Below are positions 1,072-45,565 of a DNA stretch of 64,000 bases, piece by piece. Position numbers and translations under genes: made by a program. The notes below the pieces were generated by a model. It ran no database searches, had not been told where the DNA came from, and was given only the letters and a program-made list of their open reading frames with translations. The stretch covers positions 1-64,000 of the forward strand of contig NZ_JAAABN010000007.1 in NCBI RefSeq assembly GCF_011516765.1, given 5' to 3'. Each line of letters begins with the position of its first letter. Position 1 is the stretch's first letter. Source of the DNA: Acetobacter sicerae. Its GTDB lineage: Bacteria > Pseudomonadota > Alphaproteobacteria > Acetobacterales > Acetobacteraceae.

Positions 1072-2016
1072 CTACGCGGCCATCTCCCGGTGCACTGTCG
1101 AACTCACGACCGTTTTCGGCCACCGACGATGGAACCACAGCCACTGTTGGGGCTCAGCCCTGATCCAGCCTTCAAGATGCGCGTTCACGGCTTTCATGAT
1201 CGACAGTTGATCGGCTGTGCGCTCGCCTGTCGTGGTGAAATCCAGAGCAGGTTCACACACAAGCCGGAACCGGGCCTTGCCGATCCGCACGACATGGATC
1301 GGCACAATGTTACGCTCAAAGCGCGTCGCCAGTTGGGCGAGGGCAGGGGCCGTCCACGCCGTCTGTCCGAAGAAGGGAACAGCAATCCCGTCATTCATCT
1401 TCTGGTCCACCAGCAGTCCCAGCGTGCCGCCTGCGCTCAGATGGCCGATGATGTCCCTGGCGCCGCGAGCTCCTTTTGGAAACATTCGCGTGCCCGATCC
1501 CGCCTCACTCCGTAGGCGCTGGATCAGGCGTTCGATAACGGGATTTGACGATGCCCGGTAAACACCGCCAACCGGCAAACCGAGTGCGCCGGCGATGGGC
1601 AGAATCATTTCCCAGTTGCCCAGATGGGCCGAAAAGAACAGGGGCGGTAGGCCGTTTTTCTGCGCTGCGTCGATATGTTCCCGACCAGAAATCTCCCAGC
1701 CCGGTCCTGCTGGAGTGCATTCCATCTTTCGGAGATGGGAAAACTCTCCGATCACGCGCCCCAGATTGTTCCATGCGCCCCGGACAATTCTCTTCTGCTG
1801 CTGTCTGTCCATGTCGGGAAAGGCGAGGGTGAGATTGCCTCTGGCCACCCGCGAGACAGGCAGAAGCGGACCGATGGCCCCAGCAAGATGGCCGCCAATG
1901 CCGGAAGACAGCCCTATGCCGAGAAGGCGCATCAGGCCAACGGCGCCGTTGAACGCGAGTCCGGTCAGATAACCGCCAATGCGGTCTCTGCCGGTTGGCA
2001 CAGCGATAGATGTCAT
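1072..2016 (-). CDS. LpxL/HtrB-like lysophospholipid/lipid A acyltransferase
   Basis: Predicted inner-membrane acyltransferase of the lipid A lauroyl/myristoyl transferase family, which moves an acyl chain from acyl-ACP to a lipid A precursor or related lipid. From the ATG at 2016 it is 314 residues, with a hydrophobic N-terminal stretch (about 17-50) and the catalytic H-x4-E motif in FFSAHLGNWEMI (His131, Glu136), then a GGVYRASSNP substrate motif. The frame stays open to a GTG at 2130, but the extra 38 residues do not look like the family; neither start has a good ribosome-binding site. It follows the deformylase-like gene on the same strand. Acyl chain and acceptor are unknown. Confidence 0.85.
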   Translation of the reverse strand: MTSIAVPTGRDRIGGYLTGLAFNGAVGLMRLLGIGLSSGIGGHLAGAIGPLLPVSRVARGNLTLAFPDMDRQQQKRIVRGAWNNLGRVIGEFSHLRKMECTPAGPGWEISGREHIDAAQKNGLPPLFFSAHLGNWEMILPIAGALGLPVGGVYRASSNPVIERLIQRLRSEAGSGTRMFPKGARGARDIIGHLSAGGTLGLLVDQKMNDGIAVPFFGQTAWTAPALAQLATRFERNIVPIHVVRIGKARFRLVCEPALDFTTTGERTADQLSIMKAVNAHLEGWIRAEPQQWLWFHRRWPKTVVSSTVHREMAA

Positions 2017-2285
2017 GAAGGAGGGAAGAGTCCGAAACCGTCTGCCGTTTGCGCATGCAACGAGTGCGTCCACGGCCTGACAGGAGACATATCTCCTGTA
2101 GGGAACTGCCTGAAACGCATGAAGTGCCACCTGATGGGGAGGGACAGGGATAGGTCATCCTATGATGGGCAGGTTTATCAGGCCAGCGGCGGAAAGGGCG
2201 TAACGAATGATCTCGGAACTGATGTCTTCTGTCGCAGATAGAGGTGCGTGGGGCAGAACACTGGAAAAGAGGGGCGGCATGCAGA

Positions 2286-2783
2286 CTATCGACGGCGGAG
2301 TTTCTCAAACTGAGCCATGACTTTCCCGCGCCTTAAAGGGGACAGTCGCAGGGTCCAGAACAGGCCGTTCAGCTGGTCGATCTCGTGCTGATGACAGGCA
2401 GCGCGCAGTCCCTCAGCGTCTTCGATATGCTCTGCGCCTTCAAGGTCGTGATAGCGCACACGGACACAGGCGGCCCGTTCGATCGGGCCGACGACGCCCG
2501 GCATGGAAATGCTGCCTTCTTCCAGACGAACTGTTTCCTTGGATGTCTCGACAATCTCAGGATTAACGTAGGTCTGCGGTTCGGGCGCATCAGGAAGCTC
2601 CAGAACGACGACACGTTGCGCAATGCCGATATGGGGAGCGGTGATCCCTATTCCGGGCGCGGCGCGCATGGTGTCGAGAAGGTCCGTGGCCAGAGACCGA
2701 AGCGCCTCGTCGAAGCAGGTGACGGGTTCGGCGACAAGCCGCAGCCTCTGATCAGGGAACATCACAATCGGGCGCAGGGCCAT
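2286..2783 (-). CDS. Peptide deformylase-like protein with altered catalytic motifs
   Basis: 165 residues with the deformylase fold order, but all three signature motifs are changed. Motif I reads GIGITAPHIG (His51 where GxGxAAxQ has Gln). Motif II reads EGSIS (Ser91 where EGCLS has the metal-binding Cys). Motif III reads HEIDQ (Gln137 replacing the second metal-binding His of HExDH). Only one of three metal ligands (His133) and the catalytic Glu134 remain, so N-formyl-methionine removal is unlikely. ATG 2783 is chosen because GGAG lies 6 bases upstream; an in-frame ATG at 2795 is possible. It is transcribed toward the acyltransferase and divergently from rlmN. A canonical def gene is expected elsewhere in the genome. 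Confidence 0.85.
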   Translation of the reverse strand: MALRPIVMFPDQRLRLVAEPVTCFDEALRSLATDLLDTMRAAPGIGITAPHIGIAQRVVVLELPDAPEPQTYVNPEIVETSKETVRLEEGSISMPGVVGPIERAACVRVRYHDLEGAEHIEDAEGLRAACHQHEIDQLNGLFWTLRLSPLRRGKVMAQFEKLRRR

Positions 2784-2967
2784 ATAAGTCTCCATCTGGG
2801 TCAGGCGCAGAAATCAAGGTGCAGGGGCCTGCTGTGTAATGGGCGAGTATGCGGAAGAGAATGCGTGGTTGGGAATCGACTGCCGATTTTTCTCCATTTT
2901 CCCCGCAGTCCGTGGTAGGAGGCCGCCTTTCAGACTCTTTTTCGACTGAACAGGAAGATACAAGGTT

Positions 2968-4149
2968 ATGAGCGACACGGACTTCGCGCTTGACGCCGCC
3001 GACCGGGAGCGGATTCTCGCGAAGTCGGCGCTGTTCTCCCCGCCACCGATCCAGCTTGCGGATGGTCGCCGTGATCTTGTGGGCCTGTCCCGCGAGGAAC
3101 TGACCGAGGAACTGGTCGCCATCGGCGAGAAACCGTTCCGCACCAAGCAGCTCTGGCACTGGATCTACCATCAGGGCGTAACCGACTTCACGAAGATGAG
3201 CAGCATCGCCAAGCCGCTTCAGCAGAAGCTGATGGAGCGGTTCATTGTCGGGCGACCCGATCCGGCTGTTGTGCAGACCTCGCAGGACGAGACGCGCAAG
3301 TTCCTGTTCCGCTTCCGCGACGGGCAGGAAGCCGAGACCGTCTATATCCCGGACCGGCGCGAGGACCGTGGCGCTGTCTGTATTTCCTCACAGGTCGGTT
3401 GCACCCTGTCCTGCACCTTCTGTCACACCGGCACACAGAAGCTGGTGCGTAACCTTGGCGCGGCGGAAATCGTCGGCCAGTTCATGGCCGCGCGCGATTC
3501 CTACAACGAATGGCCCAGCCCGAAAGGCGATACGCCGCGTCTGCTGTCCACCATCGTGCTGATGGGCATGGGTGAGCCGCTCTATAACTACGAGAACGTG
3601 GCGAAAGCCATGCGGATCATCATGGATGGGGAGGGGATCGGCCTGTCGCGCCGCCGCATCACGCTGTCCACGTCCGGCGTCGTGCCGTTGATGGACCGCT
3701 GCGGCGATGAACTCGGCATCAATCTCGCGGTGTCGCTGCATGCCGTGCGCAATGACCTGCGTGACGAGATCGTGCCGCTCAACCGGAAATACCCCATTGA
3801 AGAGGTGATCGCAGCCTGTCGCCGCTACCCGGCGGCGAGCAACGCGCGGCGGATCACGTTCGAATACATCATGCTGCGGGGCATCAACGACAGCGAGGCC
3901 GACGCCCGCGAACTGGTGCGCCTGATTCGCGGTATTCCGGCCAAGGTGAACCTGATTCCGTTCAACGTCTGGCCCGGCAGCGACTACAAACCGTCCACGC
4001 GCGAACAGCAGGCGAAGTTTGCCCAGATCGTCATGGACGCTGGTTTCGCCTCTCCGATCCGCACGCCGCGTGGACGCGATATTCTGGCGGCCTGCGGTCA
4101 GCTGAAGACAGCCAGCGAAAGAAGTCGCCCTGTCCGGGAAGGGATATAA
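2968..4149 (+). CDS. rlmN: Dual-specificity RNA methyltransferase RlmN
   Basis: 393 residues. Radical-SAM enzyme that methylates C2 of adenosine 2503 in 23S rRNA and adenosine 37 of some tRNAs. The [4Fe-4S] cysteines form CX3CX2C (Cys145, Cys149, Cys152) in [14 protein letters not shown]. The GMGEPLYNY motif, an RRITLSTSG strand and a C-terminal Cys in LAACGQLK (the methyl-carrying or resolving cysteine) are present. The N-terminal accessory domain includes [15 protein letters not shown]. Start at ATG 2968 with AAGG a few bases upstream. It diverges from the deformylase-like gene across about 180 bases. Confidence 0.97.
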
Positions 4150-42277: not shown

Positions 42278-43024
42278 ATGAGCGAAGTTTTGCAGGATGT
42301 CCGCAGCGAAACGGCGGAAGGCGTCTCCCATATGGAGGAAAATCACGGGCCTCGTGTGGCGCTGGATGCTGATGCTGTCAGGGCCGCATATCGGCGTTGG
42401 GCCGGTGTCTATGACACCGTGTTCGGTGGTATTTCGGCCTTCGGGCGGAAAAGGGCTGTCGCGGCGGTAAATCGTTTGCCGGGCTCCCGCGTGCTGGAAG
42501 TCGGGGTCGGCACGGGTCTCGCTCTGCCGCATTACACGGCGAGCAAGCGGATCACCGGTATCGACCTTTCGTCCGATATGCTGGCCCGTGCGCGTGAACG
42601 CGTGCGTCGTGACCATCTCAGCAATGTTGACGCCCTGCTGGAGATGGATGCCGAGGACACGCGCTTCGCCGATGATTCGTTCGATATCGCCGTGGCGATG
42701 TTCGTGGCGTCGGTCGTGCCGCACCCCCGTAAGTTGCTGGCCGAACTGAAGCGCGTGGTTCGTCCGGGTGGATATATCCTGTTTGTGAATCACTTCCTCG
42801 CCCCGACCGGTGTGCGCGGCGTGATCGAACGCGGCATGGCCCGGGCGTCCCATTCCCTTGGGTGGCATCCTGATTTTGCCATGGAAGCCCTTCTTCCTCC
42901 GGAAGATCTGGCGCGTGCGCGGATTGAACCCGTTCCTCCCGCCGGACTGTTCACGCTGGTCACGCTCGAACACGAGGTGGCGACAGCAGAAGCGCCGAAG
43001 AGTCAGGAAAAAGTCGTCGCCTGA
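42278..43024 (+). CDS. pmtA: Phosphatidylethanolamine N-methyltransferase (PmtA, Rhodobacter type)
   Basis: 248 residues. After a short N-terminal tail, AYRRWAGVYDTVFGGISAFGRKRAVAAV and the SAM loop VLEVGVGTGLALPHY match the Rhodobacter-type PmtA; GIDLSSDMLARAR and a typical class I methyltransferase core follow. It methylates phosphatidylethanolamine stepwise to phosphatidylcholine, a major lipid in many alphaproteobacteria including acetic acid bacteria. ATG 42278 has AGGG 4 bases upstream. The gene is monocistronic in appearance. Confidence 0.88.
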   Translation: MSEVLQDVRSETAEGVSHMEENHGPRVALDADAVRAAYRRWAGVYDTVFGGISAFGRKRAVAAVNRLPGSRVLEVGVGTGLALPHYTASKRITGIDLSSDMLARARERVRRDHLSNVDALLEMDAEDTRFADDSFDIAVAMFVASVVPHPRKLLAELKRVVRPGGYILFVNHFLAPTGVRGVIERGMARASHSLGWHPDFAMEALLPPEDLARARIEPVPPAGLFTLVTLEHEVATAEAPKSQEKVVA

Positions 43025-43209: not shown

Positions 43210-44475
43210 ATGGCCGTTGTGACTTCTGCCCAAACTCAAGCGGTCAGCCGTCGTAGCGGGCTGTCTCCCTATGCCGCCGCTGCCGGTTATCTGGCTCTGT
43301 CAGTGACGGTAGGCGGACTGGCCGGAGCGGTCGCGCTTGCCAGTCAGCTTCATGTTCTGCCTGCCGGGCTCGAAGCGAGGATGGCGGATTTTCACCCAAG
43401 CGCCATGCTGCTGTTTGTCGGTATTCCCGCTTTTCTCGGTGCCTTTGGTCGCCTCTTTCTCGCACGTGACCTGATGCCGGGCGGAGTGAGGGAGCTTCCT
43501 TTCCTTGATGGCGCTGCTCTCGCAGTCATGCTGATGGCCCTCCTGATGTTTCTGAGTGGAGCCTCGCAGGCTGATATGTTCGGCATGGGGCTGTGGAGCA
43601 TTGGCGCCATCCTCATGTCCGCCTCCACGCTGGCGATCATTTGTGACTCGCGGGCTGGGGCAGGCATTGTTGCCCCCCGAGGGCAGGAGAGGGTGAGTGG
43701 GCTTGTGCCTTTCTCTCTTTTTGTCTGGACACAGCTTTGCGCCGCTCTGGGGCTTCTTCTTGCTGCGCCAGTGCTGGCGGCAGGAGCGACACGGGCGCTT
43801 CTCGGCGCTTCCGATGTCATGCCGCGCTTTGAAATGCCCGCAACCCTGATTGTGCTGGTTTCTGCGTTCGGTTTGGCTGCCAGAGTATTTGATGGGATTG
43901 CTCCGGTCGGACAGAAACTGAAGGCAGTTGCTGTTGCTGTTCTCGCTGTGGTTGCGATTGGCGGCCCGGCTGTGTGGGATCGTCTGGCGTTTGTGCATGC
44001 AGATCCTGCTTATGCGCAGAAAGTTGGGACATTTCTTGCTGCTGTTGCAGCGATTGCTTTTACCGGCATCTGGATTCGCGCTCTGTGGCGTCAGGCCGTG
44101 ACGCTGCGAGTGGCCATTGATGTGCCGGTGTTGTGGGTTTCCGGCTTCTTTGTGTTGCTGGCTGCTGGCTGGATGGGCTCAGGCGTGCATACGGCGGTTC
44201 TGAATGGCGCCGTGTTCGTTCTGTTCGGCGGGTTCTACGCCTGGCTGAACGACCTGACGAAGGGACATTATTCCCGGAATTCCGCCAGAGTGCAGTTCGG
44301 TCTCATGTTCTTCGGTGTGCTGGTTTCCGACAGCAATACAGGACTGGGGCAGGCTCTCGGTGGCGCGGCAATGGCGGTTTCGCTTGGCGTGCTGGCTTTT
44401 GTGCTGCTGGACGTGCTGAGCGCAGGCCGAAAGGTTGCTGCGGGTGAGGTCGCCATGCAGGAGATTCGCCGATGA
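43210..44475 (+). CDS. Cytochrome c oxidase subunit I-like membrane protein lacking the binuclear centre
   Basis: 421 residues from ATG 43210, about 12 hydrophobic helices. It aligns by eye with CtaD: FHPSAMLLFVGIPAFLGAFG with the helix containing the low-spin haem ligand (His62), FSLFVWTQLCAALGLLLAAPVLA with the CtaD PLF.W...LLLSLPVLAG stretch, and GVHTAVLNGAVFVLFGGFYAW with the C-terminal haem helix (His327). The high-spin haem ligand two residues earlier is Gly325; the CuB motif HPEVY, the HH pair and the K-channel Lys are missing. Oxygen reduction is therefore impossible, although low-spin haem could still bind. Followed by ctaB with a 4-base overlap. Annotation pipelines may call it hypothetical or NnrS-like. 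Confidence 0.72.
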   Translation: MAVVTSAQTQAVSRRSGLSPYAAAAGYLALSVTVGGLAGAVALASQLHVLPAGLEARMADFHPSAMLLFVGIPAFLGAFGRLFLARDLMPGGVRELPFLDGAALAVMLMALLMFLSGASQADMFGMGLWSIGAILMSASTLAIICDSRAGAGIVAPRGQERVSGLVPFSLFVWTQLCAALGLLLAAPVLAAGATRALLGASDVMPRFEMPATLIVLVSAFGLAARVFDGIAPVGQKLKAVAVAVLAVVAIGGPAVWDRLAFVHADPAYAQKVGTFLAAVAAIAFTGIWIRALWRQAVTLRVAIDVPVLWVSGFFVLLAAGWMGSGVHTAVLNGAVFVLFGGFYAWLNDLTKGHYSRNSARVQFGLMFFGVLVSDSNTGLGQALGGAAMAVSLGVLAFVLLDVLSAGRKVAAGEVAMQEIRR

Positions 44476-45428
44476 GCGGGGCAACTGCGGAAGTCCGCCC
44501 CGCTCGCGTTCGCTTTGACGCAGCGCGGGTCGGGACAAACGCGAAGGACTGGGTTCAGCTTCTCAAACCACGTGTGATCTCGCTTGTGGTGTTTACGGGG
44601 GCTGCCGGTCTTTACATGGCTCCGGGCCATATGAATCCCCTGATGGCGGCGATCAGCATCCTGTGCATCTGCCTCGCTTCCGGCGCGGCGGGCGCCATTA
44701 ATATGTGGTACGATCGCGATATCGACATCATCATGCAGCGGACAGCGACACGCCCGATTCCGGGTGGGCGTATTCCTGCTGATGAAACGCTGGCTTATGG
44801 GCTGGGACTGTCGGTTTTCTCGGTGATCCTGATGTGGCTGGCGACGAATACGCTGGCAGCCGGAATTCTGGCGTTCTCCATCTTCTTCTATGCCGTGATC
44901 TATACGATGTGGCTGAAGCGTTCGACGCCGCAGAATATCGTCATTGGTGGCGCGGCAGGCGCCTTCCCGCCGATGATCGGCTGGGCTGCGGCGACCGGCT
45001 CGATGGATGTGATGCCGGTGGTGATGTTCTCCATCGTGTTCCTGTGGACGCCGCCGCACTTCTGGTCGCTCTCGCTCTATGCCTGCAAGGACTATGGGCG
45101 GGCGGGTATCCCCATGCTGCCAGTGGTGAAGGGAGCCCGCCATACACGCTGGAACATCCTTGCTTACACCATCATCCTGCTGGCGGTGTCGCTGGTGCCG
45201 TCCTTCATGCATCTGAGCGGGATGCTCTACACGGTGACTGCGCTGGCGCTGGGGCTTGGATTCATTGCCTGCGCTGTTCGCGTGCTGCTGGAGAAGCAGG
45301 ATGCAAATGGCGTCAGCCTCAATGGAGACAGGGCCGCGCGGATTTCGTTCCGTTTCTCGCTGGCTTATCTATTTCTGCTGTTCTGTGGTCTGCTGGCTGA
45401 CCACGCCCTGACATGGTGGATGTCATGA
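44472..45428 (+). CDS. ctaB: Protohaem IX farnesyltransferase (haem O synthase)
   Basis: 318 residues, a polytopic UbiA-family prenyltransferase. The diphosphate-binding motif is NMWYDRDIDIIMQRTATRPIPGGRI; the second motif region is LWTPPHFWSLSLYACKDYGRAGIPMLPV. It adds a farnesyl group to haem B, giving haem O, needed here for a bo3-type quinol oxidase. It overlaps the subunit I-like gene by 4 bases and the CoxF-like gene by 4 bases, so all three are translationally coupled. Confidence 0.95.
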   Translation: MSGATAEVRPARVRFDAARVGTNAKDWVQLLKPRVISLVVFTGAAGLYMAPGHMNPLMAAISILCICLASGAAGAINMWYDRDIDIIMQRTATRPIPGGRIPADETLAYGLGLSVFSVILMWLATNTLAAGILAFSIFFYAVIYTMWLKRSTPQNIVIGGAAGAFPPMIGWAAATGSMDVMPVVMFSIVFLWTPPHFWSLSLYACKDYGRAGIPMLPVVKGARHTRWNILAYTIILLAVSLVPSFMHLSGMLYTVTALALGLGFIACAVRVLLEKQDANGVSLNGDRAARISFRFSLAYLFLLFCGLLADHALTWWMS

Positions 45429-45565
45429 TGACCGTGCCGACCGATCTGACTGAAGTTGAGCAGACTGAACTGCTCCGCCGCCAGCGTGGCCGGGTGATCA
45501 GCCTTGTCGGCTTTACGCTGGCGATGGTGCTGGTGGTCTATGTAGTGGCGCTGATCCGCCTGTAA
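45425..45565 (+). CDS. CoxF-like small membrane protein
   Basis: 46 residues from ATG 45425 (or 45 from the adjacent ATG 45428). An acidic/polar N-terminus, then RRQRGR and one hydrophobic helix (VISLVGFTLAMVLVVYVVALIRL). In alphaproteobacteria a protein of this size and layout (CoxF/CtaF) lies between ctaB and ctaG in cytochrome c oxidase operons; here it follows ctaB but ctaG and the remaining oxidase genes are absent. This supports the view that the segment is a reduced cytochrome c oxidase operon. Confidence 0.65.
   Translation: MMTVPTDLTEVEQTELLRRQRGRVISLVGFTLAMVLVVYVVALIRL

Follow-up and report, generated by a model that had tools for sequence, protein, structure and literature searches.

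A relict of cytochrome c oxidase subunit I in acetic acid bacteria lacks the oxygen site, keeps both low-spin haem histidines and is encoded directly before the haem O synthase gene

We have analysed a stretch of 64,000 nucleotides from Acetobacter sicerae (the window) and we report that the product of the open reading frame at positions 43210 to 44475 is, by profile comparison, a derivative of the aa3 cytochrome c oxidase subunit I (CtaD) in which the oxygen site is missing, while the two histidines of the low-spin haem site are retained in all intact copies that were read. Since the oxygen site is missing, oxygen-reducing oxidase activity is ruled out, judging from the residues. The protein, referred to here as pseudo-CtaD, very likely binds a haem through its low-spin site, and our best reading, to which we give an even chance, is that it serves haem O synthase (CtaB) as a single-haem partner in the membrane and would hand on the product of the synthase.

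The gene of pseudo-CtaD (positions 43210..44475, forward strand, 421 residues) is recognised by PF00115 and by our own family profile, and its start codon at position 43210 is consistent with relatives L005, L007, L008 and L009; L005, the closest named relative, comes from an Acetobacter metagenome assembly and encodes a pseudo-CtaD that is 90% identical. The sequence-only reading had described this open reading frame, with His62 within FHPSAMLLFVGIPAFLGAFG, His327 within GVHTAVLNGAVFVLFGGFYAW and a glycine as residue 325, and had noted the absence of HPEVY, of the CuB HH pair and of the K-channel lysine; all of these residues, once checked, are as it described them. The codons of the two histidines are located at positions 43393..43395 (His62) and 44188..44190 (His327) of the forward strand. 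The stop codon of pseudo-CtaD and the start codon of ctaB share an ATGA at positions 44472..44475 (forward strand), and ctaB itself (positions 44472..45428, forward strand) encodes a haem O synthase of 318 residues (TIGR01473, 321.7 bits), which is the only one of the two TIGR01473 matches in the source genome to lie above the cut-off. The end of ctaB is overlapped by a coxF-like open reading frame of 50 residues (positions 45413..45565, forward strand). Of the names ctaB and coxF, given earlier to oxidase operon genes, coxF is the weaker, the 50-residue frame having no family match in Pfam or NCBIfam; open reading frames similar to it (E ≤ 1e-3) occur at 24 of the 99 loci compared here. Upstream of pseudo-CtaD, the constant neighbour is a PmtA-like methyltransferase gene (positions 42278..43024, forward strand; 144.1 bits with the PmtA profile, under its cut-off of 390), which is not thought to be part of the function of pseudo-CtaD. 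No subunit II (CuA) gene is found among the open reading frames between the methyltransferase and ctaB, and the plasmid search gave no match. Two other PF00115 proteins are encoded in the source genome, on contigs C20 and C46: a protein of 476 residues (L002) that by eye resembles a cbb3-type subunit I and lies beside cytochrome c genes, and a protein of 780 residues (L003) that is by eye similar to quinol nitric oxide reductase.

The descent from CtaD rests on profile comparisons. The window protein scores 38.8 bits with the Pfam family COX1 (PF00115, cut-off 34.8) and 21 bits with the NCBIfam model CtaD_CoxA, far under the cut-off of 670.75; among 59 family members, 51 match PF00115 at E ≤ 0.001. 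The family profile, A1, built from 59 rows of a set of 90, matches the solved aa3 subunit I 1ar1_A nearly end to end (E 2.3e-75). For the best 11 of 41 solved subunit I chains, the E-values lie between 3e-78 and 2e-74 and the matched part of the profile (416 positions) goes from position 16 to positions 410-415; CtaD proteins from across the class are matched over most of the profile at E of about 1e-80, among the matches listed. The family is placed by these scores in the haem-copper oxidase subunit I family, in agreement with the alignment to CtaD proposed earlier. In the alignment with 1ar1_A, His62 falls on H94 and His327 on H413, which we take to be the ligands of the low-spin haem a in Paracoccus denitrificans. 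A structure prediction from a two-sequence alignment (window protein and L005) has a mean pLDDT of 40, helices included, and was set aside for this reason, and the hydropathy segments of the protein merge, compared with the twelve transmembrane helices of subunit I.

In order to describe which residues have been lost and kept, 100 copies (the query and 99 loci) have been aligned with 23 intact CtaDs, of which 16 belong to the order and 7 to other parts of the class, with the landmark residues placed by what we take to be their bovine numbers. The low-spin haem histidines, H61 and H378, are each present in 100/100 copies. At the position of H376, the ligand of the high-spin haem a3, only one copy has a histidine, the window protein having Gly325; of the CuB site, H240 and Tyr244 are kept in none, H290 in 36 and H291 in 3 copies, and the K-channel lysine K319 is found in none. 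Partial retention is seen for R38 (9/100), E242 (48/100) and D91 (21/100). The picture drawn from the window protein, with the low-spin ligands kept and the oxygen site gone, therefore extends to the whole set of copies. The histidine in the H291 column belongs to three copies of one genus, with two more of the same genus among further loci; in L084 (G017), the haem a3 column also holds a histidine (HIH).

In the alignment, 130 columns are invariant in the 23 intact CtaDs, and only H62, W173, W256 and H327 survive in all 100 copies, so that both low-spin histidines are among the four fully kept columns (naive p = 7e-4), together with two tryptophans that are fully invariant yet are not low-spin haem ligands. 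The eight histidines that are invariant in intact CtaD are kept in 100, 0, 0, 3, 1, 100, 77 and 8 copies, respectively. Gaps take the place of W126, H368-Y372 and R438/R439 in 98-100 of the 100 copies, and the segment between helices IX and X has a length of 7 to 29 residues, with a median of 13 versus 27 in intact CtaD. Newly conserved features, i.e. those present in at least 85 of the 100 copies and in fewer than 12 of the 23 intact CtaDs, are only two: Ala at 337 and Trp129 (positions 43594-43596), the latter being the clearest (95/100 copies versus 0/23 intact CtaDs); as a guess, Trp129 may fill the space left by haem a3. Among 24 further loci that were read, leaving aside L206, which is broken, and L198, taken to be from the same genome as L005, both histidines are present in 22 of 22 intact copies, mostly from close kin. 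L206 (G592) is the sole broken copy that was read, lying in three frames; as its genome is only 86% complete, this is either a pseudogene or a sequencing error.

Selection on pseudo-CtaD is purifying. In comparisons with four close relatives, its dN/dS amounts to 0.095-0.129 (NG86) or 0.132-0.179 (YN00); in the same genomes, the NG86 values are 0.003-0.031 for ctaB and 0.023-0.051 for the methyltransferase, so that pseudo-CtaD evolves under a higher ratio that is still far below one, as the sequence-only reading had anticipated in supposing that the CtaD relict was kept by selection instead of being lost. Two more distant pairs give 0.33-0.46, at dS above 1.2; six of the 99 loci have been used in these estimates. 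Conservation in helices I, II, X, XI and XII, taken as those around the low-spin haem, does not differ significantly from that in the other helices (p = 0.12), while the pair of helices II and X, taken separately, shows higher conservation (p = 0.002), this pair having been examined second and the helix bounds in both tests having been set by eye.

The distribution of pseudo-CtaD has been followed in 200 genomes of the order Acetobacterales: a single-sequence search gave a match in 90 genomes, and a profile search then extended the set to 107, by the removal of one match (G068) and the addition of 18 genomes. The match in G068 was dropped because it is weak (E 2e-4), spans only profile residues 319-404 and contains two stops, and because the genome has an intact CtaD; in the 18 added genomes, the residues were read in 13, and five (G039, G044, G046, G080 and G085) are counted by their E-values alone. 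With intact CtaD defined by a best E ≤ 1e-155, which other oxidase types may pass too, pseudo-CtaD is found in 107/200 genomes, intact A1-type CtaD in 85/200, both in none (the G068 match being dropped) and neither in 8/200. Four of these eight (G003, G026, G038 and G147) are the only genomes of the 200 with no haem O synthase above the cut-off. In two others of the eight (G133 and G169), SURF1 is present and ctaB is located at the start of a contig, so that the cox operon is probably split there; in a third (G176), ctaB is preceded by a gene on the opposite strand. In G185 (locus L158, positions 1486-3202), ctaB comes immediately after the methyltransferase, without an intervening ctaD or relict.

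The relict tree is represented here by trees of ctaB, which include 42 and 23 of the 99 relict loci; in both, the relict loci form one clade (support 99/84 and 94/88, respectively), and in the tree with 23 relict loci, G185 is the nearest outsider (support 100/94). Because the relict loci form one clade, it is most likely that the oxygen site was lost once, with a clean loss of the gene in the sister line. Among the genomes of the 200-genome sample that we place in the relict clade, every one that has ctaB above the cut-off also has pseudo-CtaD; in the genus sample, no pseudo-CtaD match is found in two small genomes, G026 (also without ctaB) and G597. The supposition that the host of the relict is an acetic acid bacterium is supported. 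A SURF1 match occurs in 87/200 genomes, i.e. in all 85 with intact CtaD and in two more; Its absence from the relict genomes would suit a haem-handling role of pseudo-CtaD but counts here as a side remark only, having a simpler cause: SURF1 belongs to that portion of the cox operon which was lost.

The connection of pseudo-CtaD with ctaB is close at every locus: ctaB follows it immediately and in the same orientation in 99/99 loci, eight of these being recognised by a ctaB frame that overlaps the end of pseudo-CtaD. With the ctaB start taken as the nearest ATG, GTG or TTG, which favours closeness in relict and intact groups alike, a possible start occurs at most 20 bases from the pseudo-CtaD stop in all 99 loci (at -4 in 72 and at -1 in two); a -4 or -1 overlap is thus possible in 74/99 relict pairs versus 2/21 intact ctaD-ctaB pairs, nine of these 21 having the ctaB start more than 20 bases from the stop. 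The tight linkage to the haem O synthase gene, previously read from the window, extends to these loci. The methyltransferase is found upstream of pseudo-CtaD in all 99 relict loci, and in the intact loci L138 and L139, it is located farther upstream of ctaD, an arrangement that would follow from the loss of an intervening subunit II gene. Synteny as a proof of a functional link has been set aside: on its own it is weak, because the methyltransferase neighbours the relict as constantly as ctaB does.

The retention of both histidines, together with the position of the gene directly before ctaB, suggests that pseudo-CtaD probably binds haem and is not a dead gene. In the proposed mechanism, the aa3 subunit I has lost the high-spin haem a3, CuB, the K-channel and most of the periplasmic cover segments, while the bis-histidine low-spin site has stayed and would hold one haem, bound by His62 and His327, between helices II and X. 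R38, an arginine of helix I, presumably makes contact with the haem a formyl group in aa3; haem A would not be what pseudo-CtaD needs, because R38 is found in only 9/100 copies and a CtaA match is absent in 45/107 genomes with pseudo-CtaD (in the sample of 200, 32 genomes are counted as lacking CtaA as those not among the matches listed). The loss of the formyl-contact arginine and the dispensability of CtaA are both in favour of haem O or haem B, one of which is probably the bound haem. The residues W126, Y371/Y372 and R438/R439 of aa3 are assumed by us to hold or cover the haem propionates; their absence suggests, by analogy with the aa3 structure, an open, exchangeable site, which favours a haem holder over a fixed electron carrier. 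Pseudo-CtaD could then form a complex with CtaB as its membrane partner and hold its product, with haem O being passed on to CyoB, the subunit of the cyo-type quinol oxidase, or to CtaA, where present; CtaB may perhaps be stabilised by pseudo-CtaD as well.

Several observations speak against this mechanism. The loss of the propionate-holding residues could equally mean weak or no haem binding; the invariant W173 and W256 fall outside the low-spin ligands, and the proposed haem role gives no reason for them; the conservation around the low-spin haem is not significantly higher than elsewhere, and the IX-X segment can be as long as 29 residues. Moreover, haem O synthesis can do without pseudo-CtaD, as G185 has ctaB and neither ctaD nor the relict, and for the bo3 oxidase of E. 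coli, haem O synthase is described in a review as the only known assembly protein (PMC9145763). The wider scenario, in which a single event in the ancestor of the acetic acid bacteria reduced an oxidase core subunit to its low-spin haem site and it became a dedicated haem O carrier of CtaB, i.e. the missing step from the synthase to the quinol oxidase, kept in more than 100 species, is one that we put forward tentatively and consider somewhat improbable as a whole.

The gene itself and the partial oxidase cluster of these bacteria are already in print, and the printed explanation is also the first alternative to be weighed: by Degli Esposti and colleagues (PMC10715153, 2023), a COX1-like protein is said to lack all conserved metal-binding residues and probably to stabilise CtaB. 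In favour of a haem-free membrane scaffold of this kind are the position of ctaB, which follows directly at all 99 loci with a candidate start codon no more than 20 bases from the pseudo-CtaD stop, and the fast change of most of the protein, whose identity to the window copy goes down to 21%. We nevertheless consider this explanation improbable: it gives no reason for two histidines kept in 100/100 copies while 126 of the 130 columns that are invariant in intact CtaD gave way somewhere, and the printed statement on which it builds, that no metal-binding residue is left, does not hold for the low-spin site, as read from the aligned copies. A haem-free scaffold thus fits less well, because the two invariant haem histidines are left unexplained.

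A second alternative, which we judge improbable, is an electron-carrying cytochrome, which would use its low-spin haem to relay electrons to a further membrane enzyme (e.g. the quinol oxidase), with quinol or cytochrome c as possible donors. In the parent subunit, the site retained here holds the haem at which electrons enter (PMC9145763), a cytochrome c1 match is present in 95/107 relict genomes, and the reoxidation route of reduced cytochrome c is called unknown in PMC3751514. A general role as a partner of bc1 and cytochrome c is however weakened by the 12/107 relict genomes that have no cytochrome c1 match; in addition, no second redox site is seen, the interval from the methyltransferase to ctaB holds no subunit II gene, and the propionate-side residues are missing.

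The third alternative, a haem sensor or feedback regulator in which the binding of haem O or haem B would alter the activity or turnover of CtaB, draws on the same facts as the haem-handling reading, and the overlapping stop and start codons could fix the ratio of the two proteins; we regard it as distinctly improbable, as no signalling part is seen and only Trp129 and the alanine at 337 are newly conserved. That the gene is a decaying pseudogene carried along before ctaB, as its lost oxygen site and the three-frame copy L206 from an 86% complete genome would allow, is very improbable, since as a general reading it is contradicted by the selection data (dN/dS 0.10-0.18), by the open frames of 388-493 residues at the 89 loci measured, and by the presence of both histidines in 100/100 copies after apparently one ancient loss.

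These genes have been presented in print in several ways. In Acetobacter pasteurianus 386B only subunit I was reported and complex IV was taken as probably inactive (PMC3751514), ctaB and ctaD were listed as conserved in three strains (PMC5158111), and A. pasteurianus IFO 3283-01 was marked as having cytochrome c oxidase (PMC4596401). No cytochrome c oxidase genes were found in Bombella intestini (PMC5112900); an A2-type oxidase was reported in some acetous taxa (PMC10715153), and ctaB and ctaA were called still-functional remnants of the cox cluster, with a citation of Matsutani 2014 (PMC6915089). In this literature, as far as its accessible text extends and with most subscription papers outside its scope, no statement of the retained low-spin histidines was found. 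Their retention contradicts the account in PMC10715153, and what had been regarded as a fossil becomes a testable candidate for a single-haem membrane protein. Descended from an oxidase core, and with its gene immediately ahead of that of the synthase, pseudo-CtaD would offer a simple handle on haem delivery in bacteria that are easily handled in the laboratory and are used in industry; to our knowledge, the route of haem O or haem A from the synthase into the oxidases is poorly understood.

Among the known systems, SURF1, a haem insertion factor of oxidases, resembles pseudo-CtaD in the proposed job, i.e. haem delivery to an oxidase, but it belongs to a different family, and no SURF1 match occurs in the 107 relict genomes. 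The aa3 subunit I (CtaD/CoxA, PF00115, A1 type) is similar in its homology over nearly the whole length and in its position before ctaB, and it shares with pseudo-CtaD the low-spin haem histidines, the two tryptophans and much of the proline and glycine pattern; pseudo-CtaD differs from it in that the haem a3 ligand is gone in 99/100 copies, the CuB site is incomplete, Tyr244 and the K-channel lysine are absent, the propionate-side segments are missing, and no subunit II gene is located between the methyltransferase and ctaB. A further counterpart is the printed "deranged COX1-like" protein, or Acetobacter ctaD (APA386B_609, APT_01775), which has the same ctaD-ctaB position and a lost oxidase function; all of its metal-binding residues are reported there as gone, whereas in our comparison both low-spin ligands are present in every intact copy that was read.
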